From Acetonema longum DSM 6540 (lineage in GTDB: Bacteria; Bacillota; Negativicutes; Sporomusales; Acetonemataceae): a stretch of DNA of 64,000 nt. The notes below the pieces were generated by a model. That model was not told the origin of the DNA. It searched no databases and saw only the letters and a program-made list of their open reading frames with translations. The stretch spans positions 1-64,000 of the forward strand of contig NZ_AFGF01000126.1 in assembly GCF_000219125.1 (NCBI RefSeq), in the 5' to 3' direction. Every line of letters starts with the position of its first letter. The first letter of the stretch is position 1. Positions 4,662 through 55,531 of this stretch are shown piece after piece. Position numbers and translations under genes: made by a program.

Positions 4662-4972
4662 ATGACATCCGCCCGGGAAGATTTCGGCAGTAAAGAAAAG
4701 GAAGAACCCAAAAAGTAATTGCTCTAAAGTATGATAAATCCAAAGACATAGCGCCGAAAGTTGTAGCCAAGGGCGCCGGCTTTATTGCCGAGCAGATTCT
4801 GACGGTAGCCCAAAAGAACGCTGTGCCTGTTTATCAAAATAAGACATTGACCAATGTATTAATGGCGGTGGAAATTGACCGGGAAGTGCCGCCGGAGTTG
4901 TACAACGCCGTAGCTGAGGTGCTGGCTCACATCTATCGTCTGGACCAGGTACTGGGAAAACGCATCAAATAG
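4662..4972 (+). pseudogene. FlhB-like export switch domain protein (YlqH-type), frameshifted
   Basis: ATG 4662 has GGAGG 8 nt upstream and opens a short frame of 18 codons ending at TAA 4716-4718 (…KEEPKK stop). The homologous body continues in the -1 frame from 4715: VIALKYDKSKDIAPKVVAKG … LAHIYRLDQVLGKRIK, stop at 4970-4972. That body is the cytoplasmic FlhB/EscU-type domain without the NPTH cleavage motif and without membrane segments. Joined across the A-run 4710-4714 the product would be about 103 residues, the usual size for YlqH. One missing A in the run explains the break. A sequencing error or a programmed -1 shift at AAAAAG are alternatives. Confidence 0.8.
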
Positions 4973-4973
4973 C

Positions 4974-5222
4974 AGGGGAACGCTGAAAAAGACCCATCTG
5001 CGTTGTTGCTCCTGTGGGCGCTTGACGTACCCTGCGAACGTACAGTCTCACACGCGTCCTCGTCGCGCTGTATCAGAATTCATGACTTTTCAGAGAGTGG
5101 TAATAGTAGATGATCTCTCATGAGTGAAAGTCATATGAATTCTTCAGTACGGAGACGCAGAGCGTCTCTCTGACCTAGCATCTGGACCTTTTTAAACGGG
5201 CTCAGGTTCGAGGCCACAGAAA
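4974..5222 (+). repeat. Interspersed structured repeat, copy R3 (most complete)
   Basis: All modules are present. The 5' terminus (GAACGCTGAAAAAGACCCATCTG) leads into the GACGTACCCTGCGAACGTAC module and then a long hairpin, GAATTCATGACTTTTCA (5076-5092) pairing with TGAAAGTCATATGAATTC (5125-5142). A perfect hairpin follows, GAGACGC-AGA-GCGTCTC (5152-5168). The 3' terminus runs from CATCTGGACC through CAGGTTCGAGGCCACAG. The copy ends about 20 nt before the yraN ribosome binding site. Confidence 0.92.
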
Positions 5223-5251
5223 GGCTGCGCAACGACTCATAAGGAGGCTTC

Positions 5252-5608
5252 ATGAATCATCTGGATTTGGGCAAGGCCGGAGAACAGGCGGTGAGTCTGT
5301 TTTTGACCCGGAAAGGATATGCTATCATGGAGAGAAACTTTCGTACCCGCTGGGGGGAAATCGATTTGATTGCCCGGGACAAAGAAGATTTGGTCTTTGT
5401 CGAGGTAAAGACCCGGCGCGGGGCTGCATTCGGGACGGGAGCCGAAGCTGTGATATGGCACAAACAGCAAAAAATCATCAAAACAGCGCAAATCTACTTG
5501 AGCCAAAAGCGCCTGGATGCGGCGAATCTGCGCTTTGATGTGGTTGAAGTGAATGTAAAAAACAATAGTCTTGAGTTCAATCATATTGTGAATGCCTTTG
5601 GCGACTAG
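5252..5608 (+). CDS. yraN: UPF0102 family protein YraN (predicted endonuclease fold)
   Basis: The 118-residue protein belongs to the UPF0102/YraN family, small proteins with a restriction-endonuclease-like fold and no settled function. Seen here: the N-terminal GKAGEQAVSLFLTRKGYAI and the core IDLIARDKEDLVFVEVKTRRG, where the D…EVK residues match the nuclease-fold active site pattern. AAGGAGG lies just upstream of ATG 5252. Repeat R3 precedes it and a small repeat remnant separates it from comM, a gene pair often adjacent in bacteria. Confidence 0.93.
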   Translation: MNHLDLGKAGEQAVSLFLTRKGYAIMERNFRTRWGEIDLIARDKEDLVFVEVKTRRGAAFGTGAEAVIWHKQQKIIKTAQIYLSQKRLDAANLRFDVVEVNVKNNSLEFNHIVNAFGD

Positions 5609-5637
5609 AATCCGGGGCCTTTTTAACGGTCCCTCAG
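5609..5637 (+). repeat. Repeat remnant R7 / possible terminator
   Basis: GGGGCC (5614-5619), TTTTTAAC and GGTCCC (5628-5633) match the terminal module of the interspersed repeat (GGACCTTTTTGAACGGTCCC in other copies). It can form a short hairpin. It lies between the yraN stop and the comM ribosome site. Confidence 0.6.
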
Positions 5638-16190: not shown

Positions 16191-17099
16191 ATGGAACGGT
16201 TGAATGATCTGATACAACAATATATGTTATATTTACAGGTGGAAAAAAACGCCTCCCAGCACACCGTTCATAGCTATCGGGCAGACATTGACCATTTTAT
16301 TCTGTTTGTCCAGCAACAAGGTGCTGGTGAGGCTCTTTTTAGTCAGATAAAACCCATTCATATCCGGGCTTACCTGGTGGAATTGAACAAAGATCAGTAT
16401 GCAAGGCGTACAGTGGCTAGAAAGATTGCCTGTCTGCGATCTTTTTACCGCTTTTTATGCCGGGAAAATTATTTGACCGACAATCCTTTTGCCGGGATTC
16501 ATACGCCAAAGCTGGAAAAAAAACTCCCTGTTTTTCTGGATGCCGTGGAAGTAAAGGATATGTTGGAACTTCCGGGCAACGATCTTTTAGGACGAAGAGA
16601 CGCCGCACTGCTGGAAACTCTCTATGCTACCGGCGCGCGGGTGAGTGAATTGGTAGGACTCGGGATAGGCGACCTGGATTTGGTGAATCGGTTTGTTCTG
16701 CTGTTCGGCAAGGGCGCTAAAGAGAGAGTTGTGCCCATTGGCAGAACGGCTGTCCGAGCTCTGGAATACTATCTGACTGTGATCAGGCCTCAGTTATATT
16801 CCCGTCATAAGGGAAGCGTTCATCAAACATTGTTTCTTAATAGAAACGGCGGCCCACTAACAGACCGCAGTGTTCGCCGAATGATCGACAAGTACGTGGA
16901 AATCCTGGCTTTAAAAAAACATGTAACGCCTCATACCATCCGGCATAGTTTTGCGACCCATTTGCTGGATAACGGAGCCGATCTGCGTTTCGTCCAGGAG
17001 CTTCTAGGCCATGTAAACTTGTCTACGACGCAGCTTTATACTCATGTGACAAAAGAGCGTCTTAAGGCAGTATACCGAAATGCGCACCCACGCGCATAG
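16191..17099 (+). CDS. xerC: Tyrosine recombinase XerC
   Basis: The 302-residue site-specific recombinase would resolve chromosome dimers at dif with XerD. It has an N-terminal SAM-like core-binding domain (about 1-105) and a catalytic domain with the full active set: Arg150 (ATGARVSEL), Lys174, His248 and Arg251 (HTIRHSF), His274 (LGHVN) and Tyr283 (QLYTHV). Location between trmFO and hslV is the standard Firmicutes position of xerC (codV), so it is chromosomal housekeeping and not a phage integrase. No strong ribosome site is seen before ATG 16191. Confidence 0.95.
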   Translation: MERLNDLIQQYMLYLQVEKNASQHTVHSYRADIDHFILFVQQQGAGEALFSQIKPIHIRAYLVELNKDQYARRTVARKIACLRSFYRFLCRENYLTDNPFAGIHTPKLEKKLPVFLDAVEVKDMLELPGNDLLGRRDAALLETLYATGARVSELVGLGIGDLDLVNRFVLLFGKGAKERVVPIGRTAVRALEYYLTVIRPQLYSRHKGSVHQTLFLNRNGGPLTDRSVRRMIDKYVEILALKKHVTPHTIRHSFATHLLDNGADLRFVQELLGHVNLSTTQLYTHVTKERLKAVYRNAHPRA

Positions 17100-17100
17100 G

Positions 17101-17463
17101 AGACCGTTGAAAAAGGCACATCTGCGTCACTTCACCTCCGATGGACGGATCAGTCAGAAAACGTCTCTTTTCGGATTCTAGGCAATAGATATTTTGCTGT
17201 GGCTACGCCCGAGAAGCGATCTGCTTTCTTCCTGGTCTTACGATGCTTCGCATCTTTTTAGTATCGACGTACCCTGCGAACGTACAGTCTCACGCCCGTC
17301 CTTGTCGTGCTGTATCAGAATTCGCGACTTTCGGGAGAGTGATGATAGTGAGTGGTTCTTATAACCCGAAAAGTCGTCTGAATTCCTCACTAATGCGGCA
17401 ACACAGACGTTGCTCTTACCTAGCATCTCGACTTTTTTGAACGGCCCCAGATTCGAGGTAAAA
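17101..17463 (+). repeat. Interspersed structured repeat, copy R4 (longest, with insertion)
   Basis: The copy starts with GACCGTTGAAAAAGGC at 17102 and ends with TTTTTTGAACGGCCCCAGATTCGAGG. Between these lie an extra segment of about 120 nt (about 17141-17262) not in the other copies, the GACGTACCCTGCGAACGTAC module, the long hairpin GAATTCGCGACTTTCGGG (17318-17335) with CCCGAAAAGTCGTCTGAATTC (17365-17385), and a small hairpin GCAAC/GTTGC (17398-17413). The extra segment includes GATGC-ttc-GCATC followed by five Ts (17242-17259), which may be a weak terminator. This fills the gap of about 400 nt between xerC and hslV. Confidence 0.9.
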
Positions 17464-17497
17464 GGTGAGTTCCATAATAAACAGTAGGAGGGCTTTT

Positions 17498-26607: not shown

Positions 26608-26645
26608 ACGGATCGTTTGAACGACTCCAGATTCGAGGCCACAGA
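26608..26645 (+). repeat. Repeat remnant R6 between fliI and fliJ
   Basis: TTTGAACG at 26617-26624 followed by CTCCAGATTCGAGGCCACAG matches the last part of the interspersed repeat family (compare R3 and R4 ends). It starts directly after the fliI stop and ends about 24 nt before the fliJ start. Confidence 0.8.
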
Positions 26646-26668
26646 TGAGTTTGCTTGAGGTGAGATAG

Positions 26669-55406: not shown

Positions 55407-55500
55407 GGGAACCTTTGAAAATTCTGCACTGTACGGAGACGCAGAGCGTCTCTCTTACCTAGCATCTGGACCTTTTTGAACGGGTACCAGGTTCGGGGAT
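55407..55500 (+). repeat. Interspersed structured repeat, partial copy R5
   Basis: A short start GGGAACCTTTGAAAATTC joins directly to the last modules: CTGTACG, the perfect hairpin GAGACGC-AGA-GCGTCTC (55436-55452), CTTACCTAGCATCTGGACC and the end TTTTTGAACGGGTACCAGGTTCGGGG. The long central hairpin is missing. It fills the gap between frr and the following small gene. Confidence 0.88.
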
Positions 55501-55531
55501 AAAAATGATTTTTATAATTGGAGTGTAATAC

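Follow-up and report, generated by a model that had tools for sequence, protein, structure and literature searches.

A fold-back repeat beside stop codons of Acetonema longum is probably a MITE with relatives in several bacterial phyla

MITEs are normally lineage-specific, confined to one genus or species. Those of the IS5 family, with parents such as ISRssp10, are non-coding, multicopy and mostly intergenic; they have 15-bp CAGGCTGCTGAAAAA ends and duplicate the target YTAR. REP and BIME repeats, which go with RAYT genes, are short, palindromic and extragenic and reach high copy number. IS1182 insertion sequences are autonomous elements. The Chunjie MITE of Geobacter uraniireducens (Chen et al. 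2008, per PMC10969869) is described in that account as 178-235 bp long, with inverted and direct repeats, in 38 full and 57 partial copies, one of them within an operon. Excerpts from three further papers on Geobacter and Pelobacter (PMC2700814, PMC2996986, PMC3543383) present multicopy sequences as palindromic intergenic families, either unexplained or putative regulatory sites.

Here we analyse a repeat family seen in a window of 64,000 nucleotides, bases 1-64000 of contig C125, from the genome of Acetonema longum DSM 6540 (4.32 Mb in 295 contigs). The family shares with IS5-family MITEs all the features listed above. It differs from them in three ways: its interior is conserved across phyla, it has an extra inner 3' arm and it is strongly attached to stop codons. 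Like REP and BIME repeats it is short, palindromic, extragenic and abundant; unlike them it has a target duplication and inverted ends and is not associated with a RAYT gene. With the IS1182 elements of a relative in the same order it shares the CTAG duplication and a similar end that matches in part. The Chunjie MITE is similar in size and habit, and the Geobacter and Pelobacter sequences come from relatives of a Geobacteraceae MAG that carries our element; both likenesses are drawn from the published descriptions, as far as the sources cited give them. We found no published name for the family, and a search with sequence strings did not find its arms in the papers searched. MITEs as such are a known class; this family, and how widely it is spread, appear to be undescribed, and part of it may have been seen under other labels. 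We conclude, with a probability of about 80%, that the element is a MITE whose insertion duplicates a 4-bp YTAR; in other phyla it ends like IS5-family insertion sequences, and their DDE transposase most likely moves it in trans. In the phyla with well-preserved ends, this is a cross-phylum MITE family with IS5-like ends.

A preliminary description of this DNA had reported a family of interspersed fold-back repeats with copies at about 1-126, 1250-1451, 4974-5222, 5609-5637, 17101-17463, 26608-26645 and 55407-55500. All seven carry the repeat, and they do form one family. When copies from elsewhere in the genome were compared with the window by BLAST, these seven sites were found, all on the + strand, and no others; the matches cover 1-136, 1243-1452, 4950-5236, 5601-5631, 17094-17140 together with 17218-17474, 26609-26654 and 55419-55517. 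The match at 5601-5631 is marginal by itself (a single hit, E 0.008). The first copy (1-138) is a short form without the GAATTC and GAGACGC blocks described below; the start of the contig, which is also the start of the window, cuts off its 5' end, and it scores 37.2 bits against positions 21-160 of our covariance model R1. A long-form copy at 1250-1465 lies between lepB-like and ylqF/rbgA-like genes and starts at the base after a TAG stop (1247-1249). The copy singled out in the preliminary description is a complete long form at 4973-5238. At 5609-5637 a remnant with the inner-arm hairpin stands immediately 3' of a yraN-like stop TAG (5606-5608). A second remnant, at 26608-26656, contains the inner arm and 3' tail and directly follows a fliI-like stop TAA. 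The copy at 17100-17485, immediately 3' of a xerC-like stop TAG (17097-17099), is a long form with an additional insertion on its upstream side, spanning about 17141-17262; two further copies (L027 and L028) contain a GATGCTCCGCATCTTTCTAGTATCGACGTAC stretch similar to one found there. The copy at 55407-55520, immediately 3' of a frr-like stop TAA, is internally deleted. The gene names were read from the sequence by eye, and ylqF alone was checked by an ortholog search.

How is the element built? Aligned in one orientation, 34 own-genome copies reveal the anatomy of a single element. A 5' arm (TAG and then GRGACCGTTGAAAAAGGCCCATCTGCGTC) is followed by a GC-rich part that contains a GTAC hairpin; after this come a 3' arm (CCTAGCATCTGGACCTTTTTGAACGGTCCC) and a tail, which ends in GAGTTTTGCAACAGACTCC. 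In the copy at 4973-5238, whose parts all read on the + strand, the 5' arm is one terminal inverted repeat and occupies 4977-5002, with its pairing taken from alignments A1 and A4. The central GACGTAC...GTACAGTC hairpin at 5024-5047 is kept across phyla. The inner 3' arm, GCATCTGGACCTTTTTAAACGGG (5178-5201), is the partner of the 5' arm; the other terminal inverted repeat is a degenerate outer 3' arm (5224-5238; own-genome consensus GAGTTTTGCAACAGACTCC). What distinguishes the long form is an insert of about 110 bp that separates the GTAC part from the 3' arm, here at 5068-5173, made up of a GAATTC-bounded hairpin and a GAGACGC-AGA-GCGTCTC hairpin. When searched for alone, these blocks matched 31 places in the own genome; the 27 further genomes of the order gave no match. 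Neither copy 1-138 nor the copies found in other genomes contain the insert. The preliminary description had called the family modular, with different copies keeping different blocks. Copies do differ in their insert, in an extra insertion and in their deletions. In the copy at 55407 the end of the insert and the 3' part follow directly on the 5' terminus; of the copies at 5609 and 26608 nothing but the 3' hairpin region is left; and that at 17100 has its additional insertion near the 5' end. Because the insert is limited to one of the 28 genomes of the order and absent from the short form, the ancestral form is better read as a single element of about 160 bp and the 'modules' as later insertions and deletions.

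The 249-bp copy at 4974-5222 matches at least 45 places in its own genome, itself included, with E values down to 1e-127 (best 40 of 177 candidates scored), far more than chance would give. The preliminary description had proposed a covariance search of the genome and of other Negativicutes genomes. Our model R1 was built from 37 of the copies that a 3'-arm pattern (see below) located in other genomes, with none from the window genome. It finds at least 61 short-form copies in the own genome at E<=0.001, with scores of up to 89 bits; of 150 genomes of the class, 61 contain one copy or more. The whole family numbers at least 60-70 copies in this 4.3-Mb genome; all our copy numbers are lower bounds. 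Contigs C125 and C81 start or end inside copies, which suggests that near-identical copies were left unresolved by the assembly. In a search of the phylum with R1 at a stricter threshold, copies were found in 14 of 299 genomes. Per 400 kb of sequence, one related genome contains roughly 25 copies and another roughly 40.

The element is not confined to this phylum. A 22-base pattern of the 3' arm occurs in at least 120 stretches in Methylomirabilota/NC10, Rokubacteria, Syntrophales, other deltaproteobacterial MAGs, Geobacteraceae and other Bacillota, and most of the cross-phylum copies found in this way have both their interior and their arms in common with the window element. Repeats in Methylomirabilota (NC10 and Rokubacteria), several deltaproteobacterial groups and other Bacillota are thus homologues of the short form over its interior too. 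Genomes in several bacterial phyla contain tens to hundreds of copies. Distant BLAST of one NC10 copy against plasmid and phage collections gave no match. Covariance-model scoring against Rfam returned no matching family at gathering or relaxed thresholds, in keeping with the remark in the preliminary description that no named family was recognised.

What marks this repeat as a mobile element? In copies from other phyla the terminal inverted repeat is 15 bp long, with outer ends CAGGCTGCTGAAAAA and TTTTTCAGCAGCCTG flanked by YTAR; the outer 3' end is degenerate in many Negativicutes copies, and often in those of the own genome. Among 88 copies, all from other phyla, 28 have the same 4-mer at both ends, against 12.5 expected, and none of 10,000 shuffles gave a number as high. 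For YTAR/YTAR pairs alone in the same other-phyla material, 26 of 33 are identical (13.8 expected). Empty sites are also found. The lepB-ylqF interval lacks the element in 26 of 27 genomes (the 26 relatives were judged by the model in all cases and by eye in 25), and two congeneric genomes, at about 88% identity, have both shared and empty sites. At several of the shared sites the elements differ by many paired changes, as if the sites had been reused or the copies replaced. One orthologous site in the congeners carries the element in opposite orientations (L250, 18262-18415; L274, 1269-1418), which suggests in-place inversion or independent insertion at a hot site.

Terminal inverted repeats, target-site duplication (in other phyla) and presence/absence polymorphism are the marks of a MITE, and the element, with no gene and about 160 bp of non-coding, multicopy sequence, also agrees with the generic description in size, coding and copy number. 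It would be a non-autonomous DNA transposon of about 160 bp whose insertion into a YTAR site (in many cases CTAG or TTAG) duplicates those 4 bp. The preliminary description had not proposed this class. A search for autonomous copies inside the fetched loci gave only two candidate loci, both of which read as neighbouring MITEs. MITEs do not usually keep their interior from one phylum to another, as this element does, and this counts against the reading.

The six window copies other than copy 1 begin 0-1 bases after an upstream stop codon (the stops end at 1249, 4972, 5608, 17099, 26607 and 55406), an adjacency absent from the preliminary description. The same holds more widely, with the proviso that the ORF calls are crude and that copies common to two congeners are counted twice, so that individual numbers may shift: among 229 copies for which ORFs were called in a simple way, the stop of a gene running towards the element lies no more than 25 nt from the 5' end in 113 cases and from the 3' end in 53. 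Between tandem genes, Negativicutes copies lie in the sense orientation 57 times and in antisense 21 times (p 6e-5); the ratio is 71:23 next to stops, and 35 copies lie between convergent and 8 between divergent genes. The bias is weaker in other phyla (37:21, p 0.048; at stops 42:30, p 0.19). The MITE reading offers a route to this placement. TAG and TAA stops often form a YTAR target, and after insertion the restored TA plus the first base of the element, or the TGA in a GTTGA end, gives a stop again. Insertion at the 3' end of a gene would then be nearly harmless, and copies would accumulate there. The YTAR preference and the stops supplied by the ends (TAG, GTTGA) explain the position; they do not fully explain the orientation in Negativicutes, since a symmetric target leaves the 57:21 bias unaccounted for. 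The host might have taken over the copies in this class, those in sense at stops serving as 3'-end operon elements whose hairpin is maintained in place as a genome-wide regulatory repeat, but we consider this unlikely.

The arms bear on the same question. In alignment A4 (MAFFT, 38 copies from 37 genomes, not fitted to structure), 92% of the cells in which the 5' arm faces the inner 3' arm are paired. Sixteen of the 22 pairs have changed on both sides, and there are 104 compensatory cells versus 28 in shuffles. We first read these paired changes as RNA structure. RNA helices normally contain several per cent G-U, whereas G-T pairs account for only 3 of the 767 paired cells here; this argues against that reading, and the constraint on pairing more likely acts on DNA than on RNA. 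Most likely the two arms are kept complementary at the DNA level, as matched transposase ends, through DNA fold-back or by template switching. A structured RNA element of 3' UTRs and operon junctions, a transcribed hairpin that stabilises or terminates the message and is kept for that purpose, would suit the sense bias and 3'-end position in Negativicutes, the two-sided changes in the long hairpin and the compensatory differences at some orthologous sites. It is improbable all the same: its positions are not kept, as the empty lepB-ylqF intervals illustrate, the YTAR duplications are exact, the orientation bias fades in other phyla and Rfam holds no match, in addition to the rarity of G-T. Alternatively, the coevolution of the arms could be a matter of mutation only, with template switching in an imperfect palindrome copying one arm onto the other. 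This would account for the small number of G-T intermediates, for changes that almost always affect both sides, and for orthologous sites that differ by several paired changes simultaneously; it would explain pairing but not mobility. Copying would erase the characteristic mismatches, yet these persist across lineages (G.G in 23, T.C in 35 and C.T in 32 of the 38 copies), which argues against template switching alone and makes it a doubtful explanation. The pairing of the 5' arm with the outer arm is weaker and partly decayed (63%). That the inner pairing is intact where the outer arm has decayed is a difficulty for the MITE reading, as a dead MITE would not need it.

Which enzyme moves the element? 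Hairpins with conserved mismatches, and the RAYT-type genes of the own genome, would fit REP/BIME-like hairpins that a RAYT (Y1) transposase mobilises in the form of single-stranded DNA. This is very improbable, because a YTAR duplication with terminal inverted repeats is of the DDE type, not Y1, and because the RAYT genes are flanked by repeats of their own (GGGGACGG) and not by the window element. RAYT-type (Y1_Tnp) genes of the own genome lie at L181 1427-2197 (C134) and L182 70-828 (C76); the GGGGACGG-type palindromes beside them are a separate REP family.

For the MITE reading, an IS5-family DDE transposase acting in trans is the most likely mobiliser. Complete IS5-family elements on Rhodobacterales plasmids, one of them annotated ISRssp10, end in TTAA and then CAGGCTGCTGAAAAAG, with TTAA on both sides, and ends of this type match the 15-bp ends of MITE copies from other phyla, which points to IS5-derived ends in those phyla. 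A MAG that carries the MITE (G152, MITE at L142) also encodes an IS5-type transposase about 50% identical to that of ISRssp10, some 180 bp from a TTAG joined to CAGGCTGCTGAAAAA; the other end of this element is lost at the contig end. In the same MAG an IS1182-family element (L297, 798-2361) has 15-bp ends GGGGGTGTTGAAAAA and flanking GTTGT repeats. The mobiliser in Negativicutes could instead belong to the IS1182 family, a variant compatible with the MITE reading that we regard as a possibility, if a tentative one. One genome of the order (G083) has eight identical IS1182-family copies (L288, L291, L296, L301, L305, L307, L308 and L309) with CTAG on both sides; their ends, CTAG and GAGTGTGTTGCAAAACCC, come near the outer end of the own-genome MITE, CTAG and GAGTCTGTTGCAAAACTC. 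The ISRssp10 transposase itself scores against the IS1182 model, below its cut-off. Against this variant, the MITE-rich relatives G059, G049, G074, G087, G091 and G007 show no DUF772-type transposase, and the IS1182-type gene of the own genome has a different end. In the own genome we found no match to the ISRssp10-type transposase and no insertion sequence with the exact MITE ends (GRGACCGTTGAAAAA), though in an assembly of 295 contigs a partner could be missed. Its PF01609 and PF05598 transposase candidates were set aside, as their ends are of other types or incomplete and do not match the MITE.

It is unusual for a non-coding transposon to be recognisable, interior and ends alike, in Bacillota, Methylomirabilota and deltaproteobacteria, and to number up to hundreds in one genome. 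Its absence from Rfam implies that the family goes unannotated in a large number of genomes, where its copies break assemblies and sit at gene ends. The placement at stop codons offers a testable case of a mobile element filling compact bacterial operons without damage.

The same ends also occur on other elements. Three IMG/VR contigs contain fold-back elements of about 150-170 bp with CAGGCTGCTGAAAAA ends and YTAR flanks (L347, 3582-3749 and 10677-10844; L343, 669-825; L349, 6526-6683), and the pair on L347 sits among phage head-tail genes. Their interiors are unrelated to that of the window element; identical ends alone, then, do not define the family.
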